Program-made: the position numbers and the translations under genes
The notes under the pieces: model-generated
Databases searched by the model: none
What the model saw: only the letters and a program-made list of their open reading frames with translations
What the model was told of the DNA's origin: nothing
Origin: Akkermansia muciniphila
GTDB lineage: Bacteria > Verrucomicrobiota > Kiritimatiellia > RFP12 > JAAYNR01
DNA: 64,000 nt
Assembly: GCA_945870025.1 (NCBI GenBank)
Contig: CAMBQN010000009.1
Span: 1 to 64,000, forward strand
Direction of reading: 5' to 3'
In this document: one piece after another, positions 388-55,673 of the stretch
How positions within the stretch are numbered: the stretch's first letter is position 1
How the letters are laid out: each line of letters begins with the position of its first letter

Positions 388-1863
388 CTACTGCGGAGCC
401 GTGCGCACACAGCGGAACTTGCCATCGTTCCGGCGTGAGGTATCCGCTACGGCGGCGTCCAGGCGGTCGGACACTCGCGTCTGCTCCAGACCTGGGACGT
501 GAATGTAACGCCGCCCGGAGCCTACGGCGTCCGCCTGCGGCCAATCGGCGGGCAACGCCAGTGTGCCAAGGCCGTGCGTGCCCTTGAAGCTCCGGCCCCT
601 GGCGTTGCCAACCGTCACCGCGCGCTCGCCGTGGGTCTCCCAACTCTTGATCGAGTCCCAGGGCCAGACTCCGATGCCGGCAATGCCCCAGTAGGACGGA
701 CCGACTTCCTGGATAACCGGTACGCGAAACCCGCGCACCGCCTTTTCCAATTCCAGCTCCGTCATCGGCCGCAGGCCCGCCCAAGCCGCGAAGCTCACGC
801 CGTCTTCCCACGAAATATAGCGCATGGCCGCCCCGTCACGCGGTCCACCAAGGCTGAACTTGTACGTATAGTTCGGCGCGGTCCCGCTCCTGATGACTCG
901 GCCGCCCTCCGCGCAGTATCGCGTGTCCGACTGCGCAGCCGTCAGGGTCTCGAGGAACTCAGACCAGTTGCGGTTGGTGATGTGCTTCTTCATGCAATAG
1001 AAAGCCTTGTAACCGTTCGGGAAAATGGACGGAATCTCCCCGCCGTCTTCCGGCTGGGCGCCAGGGCGCGCCCAGAGTCGGCCCGGCTGCCGGCCAGTGG
1101 GGATCGCGGCGGCGCTCAGCACCCGGTACGGCGGCGCCTGGGTTCCTTCGGCAGCAAAGGCGTAGAAGGAGCCGGACTCCCAGCCGCCCGCGCCCAGGTA
1201 GAACGGGCCCTCCGCCACATGAACCATCGCAAGGCCAAACGGCCGGATCTGGGCCTTGCCGAAGTCCGCGATTCCCTGCAAACCGGTCAAGTCACAAACC
1301 AACGTGACACCGCACGCTGTAACGGTGCCCCCGCCCTGCTCCGCCCGCCGGAGGAATACGCCGGTGAAGCCGTCCTGGCCCGCCGGTACGAGAAACTCCA
1401 GAAGCGTGTCGCGGCTCTCGGACCTGAAGATGTCAGGGCTCAATTCTATTCCCGCCGTCCGCTGCGAGTCCAACCGGCCTTGGTAATACGGCAAGCCGAC
1501 GGCGGCAGCGGGCGTGGGCGGCGGGATAGCCGTCTGGCCGTAGCCCGTCGGATTCAGCACGCGGTCCGCCACCAGCCGGACGTGCTGCCACGCGGACTTG
1601 TCGTCAGCCCGAACCTTGAGAAAGACCCAGGCCGCGTCGTGGTTGATATCGTTCCGCCAGGAATCCTCCCAGCGGACGTCAAACCGGACGGTCGCGGTCT
1701 TCGCGTCGCGTGCGGCAACCGTTACGTTCGCAAACTGCACCCATGGATCGAAGCACACGGTTTTCGAGTCGCGTCCCTCGACAAAGCCCCCCGCCTTCGC
1801 GCCGGCGACAGCGACAAGCAGGACCATGGCGCACGGGAACAGTGTTTTTTTGCAGTCAATCAT
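388..1863 (-). CDS. Exported single-domain SUMF1-like protein
   Basis: This is a 491-aa protein with a signal peptide (hydrophobic core at residues 10-24). About 150 residues follow that resemble the module found before every SUMF1 domain in this window (core DAAWVFLKVR). A SUMF1-fold domain then spans about residues 210-488, recognised by FYCMKKHITNRNWSEFLE, GLRPMTELELEKAVRG and a closing FRCVRTAP. The ATG overlaps the stop of the upstream 1416-aa gene by 4 nt and is preceded by GGAGGTGAAACC, so the two are translationally coupled. The paired cysteines of true formylglycine-generating enzymes are not seen, so sulfatase activation is unlikely. A binding or structural role at the cell surface is inferred. 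Its close paralogue is at 6196-7695. Confidence 0.85.
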   Translation of the reverse strand: MIDCKKTLFPCAMVLLVAVAGAKAGGFVEGRDSKTVCFDPWVQFANVTVAARDAKTATVRFDVRWEDSWRNDINHDAAWVFLKVRADDKSAWQHVRLVADRVLNPTGYGQTAIPPPTPAAAVGLPYYQGRLDSQRTAGIELSPDIFRSESRDTLLEFLVPAGQDGFTGVFLRRAEQGGGTVTACGVTLVCDLTGLQGIADFGKAQIRPFGLAMVHVAEGPFYLGAGGWESGSFYAFAAEGTQAPPYRVLSAAAIPTGRQPGRLWARPGAQPEDGGEIPSIFPNGYKAFYCMKKHITNRNWSEFLETLTAAQSDTRYCAEGGRVIRSGTAPNYTYKFSLGGPRDGAAMRYISWEDGVSFAAWAGLRPMTELELEKAVRGFRVPVIQEVGPSYWGIAGIGVWPWDSIKSWETHGERAVTVGNARGRSFKGTHGLGTLALPADWPQADAVGSGRRYIHVPGLEQTRVSDRLDAAVADTSRRNDGKFRCVRTAPQ

Positions 1864-6195: not shown

Positions 6196-7695
6196 CTACT
6201 CCTTTGGGGCGCTGCGCACGGCGCGCATCTTGTACGACATCAACCGCCGCGGGTCCGCAGCGTCGGCGAGAAACCGGTCGGAGAGGAGCGTGCGCGCCAG
6301 GTCGACGTCGGTGAACCGGTAGTGCGTGCAGCGGAAGCCGGCGCCGACGGCATCCGCCTGCGGCCAGTCCGACGGCACCACGGCGGTCCCGTTGCCGTGT
6401 GTGCCCTTGAACCCGCGGCCATTGGCGTTGCCCACCGTCACCGCCTGCTCGCCCTGGGGGTGCCAACCCTTGAAGGCGTGCCATGCCGCGCTACTGAACG
6501 GTTCGATGCCCCAGTAACTCGCGCAACATTCGTCGGCCAAAGGCAAGCGCGGGCCGCGTACCGCTTTCTCGACCTCGAGTTCCGTCATCGGCCGCAAACC
6601 GGCCCAGGCCGCAAATGCCGCGCCGTCCGGCCAGGACATGCCGAAGCATCCCGCGCCACACCGGGGATCGCCGGAGTGGTGTTGATACGTGTAGTTCGGA
6701 GCCGTGCCCGTCCGCGAAACCTGGGTGTGACTCCGGCCGGTGTAGGCGACTCCCCGGATCCACTTGGCGGAGGTGTTCCATCGCTCTTCCGCTTGAGCGA
6801 CGGGGATGGTTTCTAAGAACCAGGCGTATTGCCGGGATGTGATGTGCTGCTGCATGCAGTAGAACGCCGCGTAGCCGTTGGGGAACGAGGCCGGAATCTC
6901 GCCGCCATCCTCCGGTTGAGCGGCGTTGCGCGCCCAGAGCCGGCCCTGCTTCTTGCCCGTCGGGATCGCTCCGGAGCCGGTCACCCGGTACGCCGGCGCG
7001 CTCTGGTGGTCCTCGGTGTACGCATAGAACGCGTTCGCCTCCGTGCCACCCGATCCCAGATAGAACGCGCCTTCGGGCACATAGATCATCTGCAGTCCGA
7101 ACGCCCGTATCTGCGCCTTGAGGGGATCCGCCAGTCCCTTGCAGGCGGTGGTGTCCCAGACCACCGTCACGCCGTGCGCGCGCACGGTCCCGACGCCCGG
7201 ATCGGCGCGCCTCAGGAAGAAGCCGGTGAGGCCGTCGGCACCAGCCGGAACCAGGAATTCCAGGAGCGTATCACGCTCTTCCACCGCGAAGAAGAACTCA
7301 CGGCTGCGTTCCAGCCCGCCGGGTTTGTCGTAGTCCGCCCGCCCCGAAAGGTAGGAGGGCAGGCGAGTCTCCTTGCGCGGTGGCGGCAGGATGATCTTCT
7401 CCTGGCCATAGCCGGCCGGATTCAGCGTACGATCCGCGGCCAGCCGCACGTGTTGCCACTCGGACTGATCGTCGGCGCGCACCTTGAAGAACACCCAGGC
7501 CGCGTCATGATTGATGCCGTTCCGCCACGAGTCCTCCCAGTCGACATCGAAGCGGATGGTCGCGGTCTTCCCGTCGCGCGCGATGACCGTCACGTTGGTG
7601 ATGGGAACCTGCGGATCAAAAGGGTTGCCGGCTGTGCCGGTGTCGACCAGAAGAGTGCCGAGCAGCGCTGACAATATGAAGCGGGTCCTATTCAT
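6196..7695 (-). CDS. Exported single-domain SUMF1-like protein (paralogue)
   Basis: This is a 499-aa protein with a signal peptide (MNRTRFILSALLGTLLVDTGTA). The DAAWVFFKVR module follows and then a SUMF1-fold domain with FYCMQQHITSRQYAWFLE and GLRPMTELEVEKAVRG, closing MRAVRSAP. It matches the 388-1863 protein along its whole length. Its ATG overlaps the stop of the upstream double-SUMF1 gene by 4 nt and carries the same GGAGGTGAAACC leader, so both gene content and translation signals were duplicated together. The active-site cysteines of formylglycine-generating enzymes are not seen. The function is unknown; secretion to the cell envelope or surface is inferred from the signal peptide. Confidence 0.85.
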   Translation of the reverse strand: MNRTRFILSALLGTLLVDTGTAGNPFDPQVPITNVTVIARDGKTATIRFDVDWEDSWRNGINHDAAWVFFKVRADDQSEWQHVRLAADRTLNPAGYGQEKIILPPPRKETRLPSYLSGRADYDKPGGLERSREFFFAVEERDTLLEFLVPAGADGLTGFFLRRADPGVGTVRAHGVTVVWDTTACKGLADPLKAQIRAFGLQMIYVPEGAFYLGSGGTEANAFYAYTEDHQSAPAYRVTGSGAIPTGKKQGRLWARNAAQPEDGGEIPASFPNGYAAFYCMQQHITSRQYAWFLETIPVAQAEERWNTSAKWIRGVAYTGRSHTQVSRTGTAPNYTYQHHSGDPRCGAGCFGMSWPDGAAFAAWAGLRPMTELEVEKAVRGPRLPLADECCASYWGIEPFSSAAWHAFKGWHPQGEQAVTVGNANGRGFKGTHGNGTAVVPSDWPQADAVGAGFRCTHYRFTDVDLARTLLSDRFLADAADPRRLMSYKMRAVRSAPKE

Positions 7696-10600
7696 GGTTT
7701 CACCTCCATATCATACGACAAATCCAGAATGGGCGCGCCGTCCTTCGCATCGTGGAACAGCGCAAACAGGTGCGGCAGTTGCCCTTTGCCATCCGGCCCC
7801 GTTTCGAACTGGATCAGCATCGTATTGGCACCTTTCTTCAGCGGGATGGACTTAGGCGCCGGCGATTTCGCACCGGGGCGCGAATCGCGCACGACCTCGC
7901 CGTTGATCCATACCCGCATCGGCGGCGGATAAAACCCTGGGGCAGAGCCGCCGTCAACCGTTGCCAGCACGGCACCGTCAAGCCACGTCCAGCCATCGGT
8001 CTCGAAACCGAACTTGAGAATCGTGGCGCGATCCGCCGGCGCGATGACGCGCGTGGCGGCGGAGATGATCGTCTTGCCCTTGGGCACGGGCTTCAGAGCC
8101 CGTGGCCACAGACCCGCCCCGTGTGTGACGGTCTGCCAGCCCTTGGGAAGTCCGCCTGCCTTGAAGACTCCGGCGGAGTCCACGTTCCAGGCCGCGTCCG
8201 CAGGATTCGCCTTCGGCGTATCGAGCCCGGCGATGCCCAGGTCCACGTCACCTGCTCCGCCATCCGGCAAATCGCTACCGGCATCCAGCGTCAGTCCTCC
8301 GGTCTTGATCTCATGCTGGCGGACCCACCAGTGCGACTGCAGGCGCACCTCGGCCACCGCCACGCCGGTCTGCGCCGCGCCGTTGGCCGGAACAACGCGA
8401 TAGGGAATCCGGTAGAAACCCTCGACGGCGGAAGCATCCCGGCGGCTGGCCGCGAATGGAGACACAACGGTCTCGCCGGCGGGGACGTCAATGCGGCGAC
8501 TGGTCTCGGACATGACAATCTCCGGCGGCGGTTGAAGTTCGATTGTCAGCGCCCGGGGCTTATCGGCGCTGTTGCCCACGCGAACCGTCACCTTGCCGCC
8601 GTCGAATGTGCCGATGACCGCCGGCTTTTCCAGCAAGGGATCGCTCAAAATCAACTTGGCCATGGCCTCGGCCAGCACCTCACCGTCCTTCTTTCGGACA
8701 GACACCGGAAACGATTGGACGCGCCGAGCGACACGCGCGGTCTGACGGGACACCACCATCAGGATCTTGAACTCCGTGGCGGTTTTCGGCGCCGCAGTGA
8801 AGGCGCGCGACGCGGCTCCATCCGGGAAACAGACGTCCGGTAACGGCGAGACCAGTTCCACCGACAAGGCCTGGTCGCCGGCATTGTGAAAACGACCGGC
8901 GAGGTGAAAGATCGCTACGTCCAGATCTCCTATGGCTGGCAGCGGCAGCAATTCGAGCTTTGATCCCCCGCTCGCCGTTACGGACTTGGCAACCGTCGTC
9001 GGGTTCGGCGCCGTACGTACGCCGCGCCAACTGTCGGTATCACTTTCCGCATACACCCGATGACGTATAGAAGGCCTTGTCCCCACGATGCCTTCCCCGT
9101 ACGAGGGTCTCACCCTCCAACTGCCCCCACGTTGCGCGATGGACGGCTGCGCACCTTGCGGCCAATCCGCAGGCAGGGACGTTGAGCCGCCGCCGTGGGT
9201 TCCGGCATATTGCAGTCCCCCGGGACGTCCGACCGACACCATGCGCTGGACCAGTCCATCAGAGGCGAGATCGCGAATGCCCCAGTATCCCGGCCCGATC
9301 TCATCCGGAACCGGTTTGCGCGGTCCGCGCCACGCCTTCTCGAATTCCAACTCGGTCATCGGCCGCAGACCCGCCCAGGCGCCGAACGCAGTTCCCTGCT
9401 CCCATGTCACCCCCTGCAGGAATGCCCAGCTAACCTTGGCGAGAGACATACCGTTGCCCGGTCGGCAGGCGTGATAGTATGCACGCACATTCGACTGCAT
9501 GCCCAGGAACCCGGCAAACTGTCCCTGCTTGAGCTGGTACTTCATGCAATAGAAGGAGCGGAATCCATTGGGGAAGGCCGCCGGGATCTCGCCTGCGTCG
9601 GATCCGTCCGGCTGAACCCCTGTGGCCCACAACCGGCCCTCCTGCGGTCCGGTCGGGATCGGCCCGGCGTCCGTCACTGGGTACGGTAACGCGTCCTGAC
9701 TGCCATCCGTGTACTGGTAGAAGCGGTTCGGCTCCGTACCGCCGGACCCCAGATAGAACGGCCCTTCCGGCACATAAACCATTTCGATGCCGAAGGCGCT
9801 GATTTCAGGTTTCAGGTTTCGGGTTTCAGGTTTCCGGTTTCCGAACGTTGCTTCGAGATCCACGACCACGGTGACCCCCTTGGCCGACAGCGGACCCGTG
9901 CCGGGCGCGGCGCGCTGGAGGAACACGCCGGTGAATCCCTCCGGGCCATCCGGCACGACATATTCCAGCTTCGTTCCAGATTCCTGGCCGTAGCCCGTCG
10001 GGTTCAGCACCTGATCGGCCACCAACTTCACATGCGCCCAGTTCGTGCCTCCGGCGGTCCTGGCTTTGAAGAAGCCCCAGGCCGCATCGTGGTTCGTTGC
10101 GTTGCGCCAGGAATCGTCCCAGCCGATATCGAACGTGATCGTGGCGGTCTTTCCGTCGCCCGGCTGCATCGTCACGTTCGCGATGCGCAACTGTTCATTG
10201 AAAAGGCTCTGCGGACTATCCGTCCGTGCGGCCCCTTCGCTCGTCGCGCTCTGAGGCCGCCCCGAGCCAACCGAACGAACCGCGCGGAACCCGCAATACG
10301 CCGCGCCCCCGATACGGGTCCCGCTGCTGCGATCCGATACGCGCATGACGTTCAACCAGTTTGTGGCACCACGCCAGATCATCCCCCCACCCAGCATCCA
10401 CCAGCCCGGCCGCCCGGCCAGAATATCCGGCCGATTCTCATTCTTGAAACACCCTCCGAAATCATCCCACTCGTTTAGATCGCCAACCCGTCCTTCGCCG
10501 TGTGCGCCGTCAAACTGCCTGCCGATCGGCCGTCCGACGGCCACCGTGTTCTCAATAAGGTTGCCGGTCAAATCCAGAATCCCCCAGTACGAGGCGCCCC

Positions 10601-11948
10601 CGCGCGCACGATCACTGTCAGCAACAATATTGGTCGTGGCCGTTCCCCAGGCAAACTCGTCAGGCACAGGTTTGATCGGCCCACGGCAGGCTTTTTCGAA
10701 TTCCAGTTCCGTCATCGGCCGCAGCCCGGCCCATGCGGAGAACGCCAGTGCATCGCGCCACGCCAAACCGGCGCAAGCCACGTGCGGCGCGTCGGTTTCG
10801 TATTTCGCCAGCCGTCCGGCACCGGCCAGCGTGATTCCCCTTTTCCCCTCGTTTTCCTTCTCACCCACAAAAACCTTCATGGCGGCCTGTTGTTCGCTGC
10901 TCAGCGTGTTCAGAAGTGCCGTCATTTCGCCGCGGGTCACCTCATCGCGCATGCAGTAGAATGGCGCAAAGCCCTTCGGAAACGCCGACGGCAGGAACCG
11001 CGTCTGACTGACCGAGAAATCGTCGGTGGAGAATACGTTGTCCCGGTTGCCCAGGTTCCCGCGGTCAGCGCCTCCCAGCGTCAGCGCCGCCTCGCTCTCG
11101 ACCCGGAAAGGCGCTGTCGTGTTTCCGGACGAGAACTGCCCGGCGACTCCGTTGGTGGAACCGTCGCCGGCCCAGAACGCACCTTCCGGGACATAGACCA
11201 TCCGGATAGCGAAGATCCGGATTTCCGTGGTTCCGCTCGTCTTGCTCGCGTTGACTTCTGCCTTCGCGTTTGCTTCTTCGAACATCCTGCCGATCGGGTC
11301 ATCCTGCGGTTCGGAGAGCTTCTCCATGTCGTCCTTCGGCGCGCCCCGGGCGATCTGCGGTGCCCGTGCCTCGCGGTCGCCGGCAACAACTACCTTGTCC
11401 GGGTTGGGCACTCCGTCTGCATCGCACAACCAGCGCACTTTCAGGCCTTTCCAATCGTTCGGCCCGCGCCCGGGAGCGTTGCGGCAGATGAACACGCCGA
11501 GGCCGCGCCTGTCGCCTGTCCCGATACCCGTCGAGGGGTCATCGTTCAGACCAACGTCCAGCGTCGCGCCGGCGGGAACCGTGTGATCCGAGGCGTTCGT
11601 CGACAGCGTGGCGTGCGACCAGCCGTCCGCGCCGGGTTTGCGGAACTTGATGAACACCCAAGCAGCGTCCCAGTTCTCCAACGACAGTTTGCCCTTGCCG
11701 CCTGATTGCTCCGGTGCCACCTCCCACGCCGCGCGCCAGGACCCATCCCACGCGAGATCGAACGTGATCGTGCCCGCGCCCTTGGCATCGGATGGCTTGC
11801 AGCTTACGTTGGTGATCCGGATGGGGTCGGCTTTCCCCGTGCCCGTGAACCGCGCGTCGGCGGGTTCTGCCGCCTGCGCCGATGAGGCGGCCAGCAAAAA
11901 CAGTGCGCAAACGGCAACGGGCAAATGGACTTTTGTCATATTCTTCAT
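7692..11948 (-). CDS. Large exported double-SUMF1 protein (paralogue)
   Basis: This protein is about 1418 aa. The ATG at 11948 is preferred because GGAGAAGG sits 2-9 nt upstream; ATGs at 11960 and 11975 are alternatives. The domain order is as in 1860-6110: signal peptide (core VAVCALFLLAASSAQA), module (NWDAAWVFIKFR), SUMF1 domain 1 (GLRPMTELEFEKACRGP, YCGFRAVRSV), second module, SUMF1 domain 2 (GWRGVRTAP), a beta-rich region and a C-terminal KGANTMLIQF domain. SUMF1 domain 1 lacks the 25-codon insertion found in the paralogue. The linker before SUMF1 domain 2 is encoded by six GGTTTCN heptamers. It is the first gene of the four-gene minus-strand array. Its function is unknown beyond a likely extracellular role. 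Confidence 0.85.
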   Translation of the reverse strand: MKNMTKVHLPVAVCALFLLAASSAQAAEPADARFTGTGKADPIRITNVSCKPSDAKGAGTITFDLAWDGSWRAAWEVAPEQSGGKGKLSLENWDAAWVFIKFRKPGADGWSHATLSTNASDHTVPAGATLDVGLNDDPSTGIGTGDRRGLGVFICRNAPGRGPNDWKGLKVRWLCDADGVPNPDKVVVAGDREARAPQIARGAPKDDMEKLSEPQDDPIGRMFEEANAKAEVNASKTSGTTEIRIFAIRMVYVPEGAFWAGDGSTNGVAGQFSSGNTTAPFRVESEAALTLGGADRGNLGNRDNVFSTDDFSVSQTRFLPSAFPKGFAPFYCMRDEVTRGEMTALLNTLSSEQQAAMKVFVGEKENEGKRGITLAGAGRLAKYETDAPHVACAGLAWRDALAFSAWAGLRPMTELEFEKACRGPIKPVPDEFAWGTATTNIVADSDRARGGASYWGILDLTGNLIENTVAVGRPIGRQFDGAHGEGRVGDLNEWDDFGGCFKNENRPDILAGRPGWWMLGGGMIWRGATNWLNVMRVSDRSSGTRIGGAAYCGFRAVRSVGSGRPQSATSEGAARTDSPQSLFNEQLRIANVTMQPGDGKTATITFDIGWDDSWRNATNHDAAWGFFKARTAGGTNWAHVKLVADQVLNPTGYGQESGTKLEYVVPDGPEGFTGVFLQRAAPGTGPLSAKGVTVVVDLEATFGNRKPETRNLKPEISAFGIEMVYVPEGPFYLGSGGTEPNRFYQYTDGSQDALPYPVTDAGPIPTGPQEGRLWATGVQPDGSDAGEIPAAFPNGFRSFYCMKYQLKQGQFAGFLGMQSNVRAYYHACRPGNGMSLAKVSWAFLQGVTWEQGTAFGAWAGLRPMTELEFEKAWRGPRKPVPDEIGPGYWGIRDLASDGLVQRMVSVGRPGGLQYAGTHGGGSTSLPADWPQGAQPSIAQRGGSWRVRPSYGEGIVGTRPSIRHRVYAESDTDSWRGVRTAPNPTTVAKSVTASGGSKLELLPLPAIGDLDVAIFHLAGRFHNAGDQALSVELVSPLPDVCFPDGAASRAFTAAPKTATEFKILMVVSRQTARVARRVQSFPVSVRKKDGEVLAEAMAKLILSDPLLEKPAVIGTFDGGKVTVRVGNSADKPRALTIELQPPPEIVMSETSRRIDVPAGETVVSPFAASRRDASAVEGFYRIPYRVVPANGAAQTGVAVAEVRLQSHWWVRQHEIKTGGLTLDAGSDLPDGGAGDVDLGIAGLDTPKANPADAAWNVDSAGVFKAGGLPKGWQTVTHGAGLWPRALKPVPKGKTIISAATRVIAPADRATILKFGFETDGWTWLDGAVLATVDGGSAPGFYPPPMRVWINGEVVRDSRPGAKSPAPKSIPLKKGANTMLIQFETGPDGKGQLPHLFALFHDAKDGAPILDLSYDMEVKP
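9801..9842. repeat. Heptamer array (GGTTTCN x6) inside a coding region
   Basis: Six consecutive 7-nt units of type GATTTCA, GGTTTCA, GGTTTCG and GGTTTCC encode the linker NRKPETRNLKPEIS of the double-SUMF1 protein. The same heptamer forms the core of the ~140-bp intergenic elements at 44067-44198 and 55528-55673. Confidence 0.85.
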
Positions 11949-11960
11949 GGCCTTCTCCAT

Positions 11961-11984
11961 AGCGACACCGTTCACGGTGTCGCT
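11961..11984. repeat. Perfect 10-bp-stem hairpin just 5' of an RBS
   Basis: AGCGACACCG (11961-11970) and its exact complement (11975-11984) form a stem around the loop TTCA. The hairpin ends directly before the GGAGAAGG that serves the ATG at 11948, so in the transcript it would sit at the edge of the ribosome binding site. Confidence 0.7.
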
Positions 11985-44066: not shown

Positions 44067-44198
44067 GAGGCGCTTGCAAAACCCCAGCAAGCGCCGGTTT
44101 CAGGTTTCAGGAAGACGCAACATCGTGTGGTTCTTCCTGACACCCGAAACCTGACACCTGAACACTCCGCTTGCAAAACAGGGTTTTGCAAGCGGCTC
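44067..44198. repeat. 132-bp fold-back repeat element, copy A
   Basis: The element starts GAGGCGCTTGC and ends GCAAGCGGCTC. A left hairpin (44069-44077 with 44087-44095, 9-bp perfect stem) and a right hairpin (44167-44179 with 44183-44195, 13-bp perfect stem) flank a centre of GGTTTCA heptamers and their imperfect complements. The reverse complement of 55528-55673 matches it over the whole length, except that copy B has two more heptamers. It lies between the convergent ychJ-like and nifS-like genes, so the hairpins may also act in transcription ending. Confidence 0.9.
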
Positions 44199-55527: not shown

Positions 55528-55673
55528 GAGCCGCTTGCAAAACCCTGTTTTGCAAGCGGAGTGTTCAGGTGTCAGGTTTCGGGTATCAGGATGAACCACA
55601 CGATGTTGCATCTTCCTGAAACCTGATCACTGAAACCTGAAACCGGCGCTTGCAGGGGTTTTGCAAGCGCCTC
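55528..55673. repeat. 146-bp fold-back repeat element, copy B
   Basis: This is an inverted copy of 44067-44198. The hairpins are 55531-55543 with 55547-55559 (13-bp perfect stem) and 55645-55653 with 55663-55671 (9-bp stem). It is 14 nt longer than copy A because of two extra heptamers in the centre. It starts 3 nt after the aminotransferase stop and ends about 20 nt before the EIIA ATG, so it fills nearly the whole gap. Confidence 0.9.

Follow-up and report, generated by a model that had tools for sequence, protein, structure and literature searches.

Heptanucleotide repeat arrays in the linker ahead of a SUMF1 domain and their relation to a dispersed family of genomic repeats

Two coding arrays and the dispersed heptamers

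In the 64-kb stretch of DNA analysed here, called the window below, all four SUMF1 proteins (4/4) exceed the curated cut-off of the FGE-sulfatase profile, PF03781. On the basis of this profile match, the two proteins whose genes bear heptamer arrays, P0001 and P0002, are assigned as probable members of the FGE-sulfatase/SUMF1-like family. The features are collected in Table 1.

Table 1. Features of the window considered in this work. The ends of the intergenic elements were judged by eye.
Feature	Coordinates	Strand	Description
Single-SUMF1 paralogue	388..1863	-	Ordinary linker QGIADFGKAQIRPFG
P0002 gene	1860..6122	-	1420 aa, FGE-sulfatase match; array-bearing paralogue 2
Heptamer array of P0002	3988..4015	-	Coding strand TGAACAC TGAACAC CGAACAC TGAACAC; peptide LNTEHRTLNT; linker equivalent to that of P0001
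Single-SUMF1 paralogue	6196..7695	-	Ordinary linker KGLADPLKAQIRAFG
P0001 gene	7692..11975	-	1427 aa, FGE-sulfatase (PF03781) match; array-bearing paralogue 1
Heptamer array of P0001	9801..9842	-	Coding strand GGAAACC GGAAACC TGAAACC CGAAACC TGAAACC TGAAATC; peptide GNRKPETRNLKPEI; linker preceding SUMF1 domain 2
Intergenic element, copy 1	44067..44198	+	Hairpin, heptamer arm, core, inverted heptamer arm, hairpin; ends GAG/CTC
Intergenic element, copy 2	55528..55673	-	Orientation opposite to copy 1

The window sequence reads GATTTCA GGTTTCA GGTTTCG GGTTTCA GGTTTCC GGTTTCC in the array of P0001 and GTGTTCA GTGTTCG GTGTTCA GTGTTCA in that of P0002, and Tandem Repeats Finder detects both. A first-pass annotation of the window had described these arrays as (GGTTTCN)6 and (GTGTTCN)4, placed before SUMF1 domain 2. 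Both are present at these places, and the four-unit formula is exact; in the six-unit one, five units are exact and one is GATTTCA. Since the two genes lie on the minus strand, the proteins read GNRKPETRNLKPE-ISAFGIEMVYVPEGPF and SLNTEHRTLNT-SLHAFGLEMVYVAEGPF, respectively. The second SUMF1-type part starts with AFG(I/L)EMVYV, and KPETRNLKPE (P0001) or LNTEHRTLNT (P0002) stands immediately N-terminal of it. The motif given earlier as ATGCCGAAGGC is the complement of the AFGI codons that come after the array.

The heptamer repeat is thus found outside the PF03781 match, in the joint ahead of the second SUMF1-like part. This linker, which runs between the preceding and the SUMF1 domain, varies in length and sequence across the protein family, a variability that suggests it is exposed. 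AlphaFold2 models of four window sequences had a mean pLDDT of 35, too poor for use. The closest relatives of P0001 belong to other families of the class (G341:C20, L306, with 78% identity, and G116:C80, L307, with 74%), the same-genus genome G001 giving only 63%. This identity pattern suggests that the gene pair at 7692-11975 may have been acquired by lateral transfer.

The heptamers are not confined to genes. Both intergenic elements are composed of GGTTTCA, GTGTTCA and GGTGTCA units, which bears out the earlier statement that they are built from linker-type heptamers and supports the notion of one repeat family both inside and between genes. In the genome from which the window comes (G000; 2.76 Mb, 59 contigs, 81% complete), many heptamers sit in this dispersed element of about 130-145 bases, the end word of which, CGCTTGCAAAAC, has 110 matches there. 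Complete elements also occur in the records of other genomes (the named MAGs L243, L275 and L300). With their inverted ends and many dispersed copies, the intergenic copies can be classed from sequence as putatively MITE- or REPIN-like; Rfam at gathering thresholds gives no family anywhere in the 64-kb window.

Searching G000 with three-unit patterns gave 36 matches for GGTTTCN and 217 for GNNTTCN, and 0 for a backwards-read control pattern. Tandem 7-base units are therefore above chance in this genome and occupy many unlinked sites across its 59 contigs, and by this head-to-tail arrangement beyond chance at many unlinked sites the arrays belong to the bacterial tandem heptanucleotide repeats. 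At C12:80930-81061 (L014), near a contig end and outside a long open frame, some nineteen heptamers (GGTTTCA/GGTTTCG/GTGTTCA) follow one another. Among the first 100 of the 217 places listed, coding arrays were found in at least eight SUMF1 linkers and at no fewer than three other sites. The latter are C23:19701 (L028), in an alpha-2-macroglobulin-like protein (PF00207), C1:141137 (L035), in a large protein whose scanned piece matches no Pfam family, and C2:111303 (L040), in a PF17132 alpha-L-rhamnosidase-like protein; each of these arrays is on the GA strand.

A 20-base composite, GGTTTCAGTGTTCAGGTTTC, occurs in at least 107 stretches of genome contigs, and the hosts, by record title and among the 80 matches listed, are Deltaproteobacteria, Desulfobacterales, Verrucomicrobia, Kiritimatiellae, Lentisphaerae, a Planctomycetaceae and Wenzhouxiangella. 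In the 107 loci, which were selected for holding the composite, period-7 arrays number 337, as compared with 5 to 62 for periods 5, 6 and 8-12. Further heptamer word families are present in loci L199-L305 (named MAGs, many of them Deltaproteobacteria or Desulfobacterales), with GCATGGG/GCATGGA, AATCTAC and CAACGTC arrays.

A linker repeatedly occupied by arrays

SUMF1 genes of the type described above were gathered from G000 and its relatives, giving 89 linkers and 1788 control windows from the same ORFs, and each was scored by its best 21-base stretch at lag 7 (matches out of 21). The hotspot is real: scores of at least 15 are reached in 13/89 linkers, which are related sequences rather than independent trials, and in 8/1788 control windows. 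At a threshold of 16 the numbers are 11/89 and 1/1788, the lone control resembling sequence ahead of a gene. At lags of 4, 5, 8, 10 and 11, a score of 14 was reached in 0/89 linkers.

Of the 13 array linkers, G000 contributes seven, G341 three, and G340, G321 and G008 a single one each. An eighth in G000, C57a (L198), lies beyond the 13 and was read by hand. Several spellings can be distinguished on the coding strand. TGAAACC is used in P0001, C41a, C42a and C10a; TGAACAC in P0002, C2a, C57a, G341:C20 and G341:C49; and CGACAAC in G340:C68 and G341:C5. The C26a array is a mixture of TGAACCC and TGAATCC, and the sequences of G008 and G321, as printed, show a GAAAATT array and a worn CTGCCTC array, respectively. 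The words mostly follow the pattern [T/C]GA, three A/C-rich bases and then C, that is, a YGA-NNN-C skeleton. At least six paralogues in G000 besides P0001 and P0002 thus carry arrays at the linker, single-SUMF1 genes among them. The idea that only double-SUMF1 genes have arrays holds for the window, where the two single-SUMF1 genes have ordinary linkers, but not for the genome, where the single-SUMF1 genes C41, C42, C26 and C10 bear arrays. As a hallmark of the double-SUMF1 genes the arrays are therefore ruled out.

We now turn to the lengths of the linkers. Between fixed flanking motifs, 55 of the 89 could be measured and 34 could not. Among the 55, 33 have 23 amino acids and four have 16, the rest being at 14, 18, 21, 22, 24, 25 and 27. 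Array linkers mostly have 23 amino acids like the ordinary ones, a pattern that resembles replacement more than insertion. Among the linkers compared, no pair with a cleanly bounded empty site turned up. Each of the four 16-residue linkers retains one unit-like remnant (CCTGAACGC in G341 L356, CCTGAACAC, CCGAACACC, and CCGAACAGC in G008 L393), and this leftover unit is TGAACAC-like. Several pairs differ by 21 bases. C10a and C10b are 21 bases of array apart with flanking DNA 88% identical, and G001:C19b (16) and G341:C5 (23), sisters at a support of 100, are seven residues apart. Other lengths are off the seven-residue step: P0001 has 27 residues, 4 more than the 23 of G341:C20, and G116:C80 has 21.

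The reading frame imposes a further constraint. Because 7 is not a multiple of three, every third unit of a pure TGANNNC array would be a stop. In the linker arrays, the 11 units with NGA as an in-frame codon have CGA in 10 cases, GGA in 1 and TGA in 0 (G321 contributed no unit chain to this count, and G341:C5 and G008 two units each). In the other phases 31/38 linker units start with T, similar to the 193/235 found for all G000 arrays in the fetched loci. The 0/11 in-frame TGA means that the arrays were readable at arrival or were made readable, and have been kept so. In every YGA-type array of the SUMF1 linkers, the GA strand is the coding one. Stops are wholly absent from the opposite strand, yet it would encode the hydrophobic GFRFQVS, and the simplest reason for the strand preference would therefore be protein-level selection for a polar joint.

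Inheritance, respelling and possible origin of the arrays

An IQ-TREE tree was built from 63 sequences with the linker excised; it includes 11 array tips and leaves out C2a and G341:C49 from the 13 array linkers. All 11 array tips and five one-unit linkers are united in one clade with moderate support (UFBoot 85), within which six genes with ordinary KGIT-like linkers nest at 96-99. Counting the residues as arrays, parsimony gives 4 changes, and 0/1000 label shuffles give as few, the shuffle minimum being 9; with strict arrays only, there are 7 changes, and 8/1000 shuffles are as low. If arrays never disappear without trace, 7 gains are required. In the IQ-TREE tree as in a FastTree one, genes with and without arrays are intermingled, and the FastTree tree places C2a/C57a in another, distant SUMF1 subfamily, which implies at least two entries of heptamers at the linker. 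The strong clustering means, on the other hand, that much of the array pattern is inheritance in one clade. The earlier view of independent arrival at the linker is thus correct in that entry took place more than once, but a large part of what is seen has been inherited. A derivation of the two window linkers from one non-repeat ancestor via point mutation was not found in the comparison of linkers.

Related genes can differ in spelling. P0001 (TGAAACC) and G341:C20 (TGAACAC) are sisters at 100, with 78% identity over the query, and C41a/C42a (TGAAACC) group with G340:C68 (CGACAAC) at 99. At the same time, one 33-base block is identical in C41a, C42a and C10a, and P0001 matches 32/33 of it, with flanks that are 59-70% identical between lineages (70% for C41a and C10a). 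It is important to point out that the frame forbids T in unit 3, so that the same word can give identical arrays separately, and identity alone is then no proof of conversion. The later conversion proposed in the first-pass annotation fits the respelling between orthologues, such as P0001 and its G341 relative, but no donor or conversion tract was seen. Both words that spell the linkers of G341, GTGTTC and GTTGTC, are also present as arrays in its genome-wide pool. In G340, where the linker word is GTTGTC (CGACAAC), a genome search found 0 three-unit GTTGTC arrays elsewhere, which counts against the own pool as donor there. By hand count, same-spelling pairs of arrays make up 5/18 within a genome and 5/48 across genomes, numbers too few to prove concert.

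The explanation that we favour, and that we consider rather probable, is that a dispersed heptamer family lodged two or more times at this tolerant linker and was then inherited, stretched, shrunk and respelled. The arrays would have entered the joint ahead of the SUMF1 domain from the genome's own family and been passed on with the gene, selection against in-frame TGA keeping them readable. Their length would then change by three units at a time (21 bases or 7 amino acids), which is the least change in whole units without a frameshift, possibly via slippage or (unequal) recombination between units, and the arrays would change spelling as a block, probably by being replaced or homogenised by others within the same genome. 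Several points speak against this explanation: the mostly ordinary length of the array linkers, the lack of clean empty-site pairs, the absence of three-unit GTTGTC arrays elsewhere in G340, the moderate clade support with ordinary linkers nested inside the clade, and the difference of 4 rather than 7 residues between P0001 and G341:C20.

We have also considered a single origin in the ancestor of the clade, followed by point mutation and small indels only, with nothing copied from the genomic repeats. The strong tree clustering, the TGAACAC-like unit kept in the four short linkers and the presence of TGAACAC in both G341 and G000 are in line with it. However, almost all units differ in the same manner between P0001 and its sister G341:C20, TGAAACC is common to three G000 gene lineages and absent from their relatives in other genomes, and C2a/C57a sit in another subfamily, so that we judge this scenario unlikely. 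Another option is selection at the protein level alone, which would favour a polar flexible peptide, with heptamers as no more than a cheap means of making it by local slippage from any sequence. The peptides are indeed similar (LKPETRNLKPE, LNTEHRTLNT, PTTDNRQPATE), and the common GA strand, despite the stop-free alternative, fits as well. But an amino acid preference cannot explain the 33-base DNA identity across diverged paralogues, and the linker units of G000 and G341 are words widespread in the rest of the genome, not arbitrary heptamers, which makes this option quite improbable.

That the hairpin-ended intergenic element inserts in genes and leaves its heptamer arms there is highly improbable. 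The units are the same and the element is abundant, as judged from its end word and the full copies in other records, but around the arrays in eight SUMF1-linker contexts there are 0 hairpin words, the core and the inverted arm are missing as well, and the linker arrays are nearly single-spelled compared with the mixed arms of the element. The lack of hairpin words near the linker arrays led us to reject the element as their source. A further candidate was that the linker descends from a 5' untranslated region taken in through a gene fusion, given that arrays in G341 abut start codons and that the M of EMVY is present in every linker found with the EMVY motif. Genes of the two-part layout with ordinary linkers surround the array clade, however, so that the joint looks older than the arrays, and this candidate is ruled out.

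Beyond the favoured course of lodging, inheritance and respelling, a sequence-directed process might keep copying the heptamer words of a genome to places where heptamers already stand, genes included, such that arrays in unrelated genes evolve in concert with the genome-wide pool and the linker is respelled species by species. We regard this as speculative and give it a rather small chance. If it were true, the shared YGA-NNN-C skeleton and the 20-base composite in several phyla would suggest a shared copying machinery, with template switching, or a reverse transcriptase that carries its own heptamer, as candidates.

Comparison with known heptanucleotide repeats

Heptanucleotide repeats in bacteria, some of them inside ORFs, are already known. 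According to a survey of long simple sequence repeats by Mrazek et al. (2007), as cited in PMC4679880, most repeat-rich prokaryotes have the heptanucleotide as their most frequent long unit, and slippage has been proposed. That survey, as cited, concerned any repeat, whereas here one word family, a specific protein linker and several genomes are involved. The literature search yielded no report of heptamers in SUMF1 linkers. As far as the literature searched shows, what is new is that one protein linker is occupied repeatedly, in several genomes and spellings and with length steps set by the frame. With a repeatedly hit linker, the frame as a built-in ruler and orthologues to compare, the system offers a record of how arrays arrive, lengthen and are respelled, and genes with seven-residue repeat peptides that match non-coding repeats point to a possible route to new protein linkers.

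The closest known system is the TAACTGA heptamers of marine Beggiatoaceae, Cyanobacteria and Bacteroidetes (MacGregor 2015, PMC4679880). The units here are not TAACTGA but GGTTTCN, GTGTTCN, GTTGTCN and kin. The TAACTGA repeats are likewise arranged head to tail at numerous unlinked sites; most lie between genes, their occurrence across phyla is patchy, and some are within ORFs, mainly at the protein periphery, as arrays are within ORFs here too. They also often stand directly before start codons. In G341, a start codon lies within 35 bases on the GA strand for 11/18 arrays, as against 3/18 on the other strand; for G000 the numbers are 22/65 and 12/65, a count that includes the elements and linkers themselves. 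At eight G341 loci (L439, L442, L444, L451, L454, L456, L458 and L459), long ORFs have arrays of CGACAAC, TGACACC, TGAACAC or related words on the GA strand just ahead of their ATG. This tentative likeness to Beggiatoaceae suggests that the heptamers may act at the RNA level outside genes, and a leader or ribosome-standby role is possible for the start-codon arrays of G341.

PMC4679880 finds no mechanism by which heptanucleotide repeats spread. The two systems differ in several respects. One word dominates in the TAACTGA system, words one base off being rare as repeats, while several words coexist here. Nor does the part of that paper used here describe a recurrent position in a paralogue family, a 21-base quantisation or a respelling between orthologues, all of which are seen in the present case.
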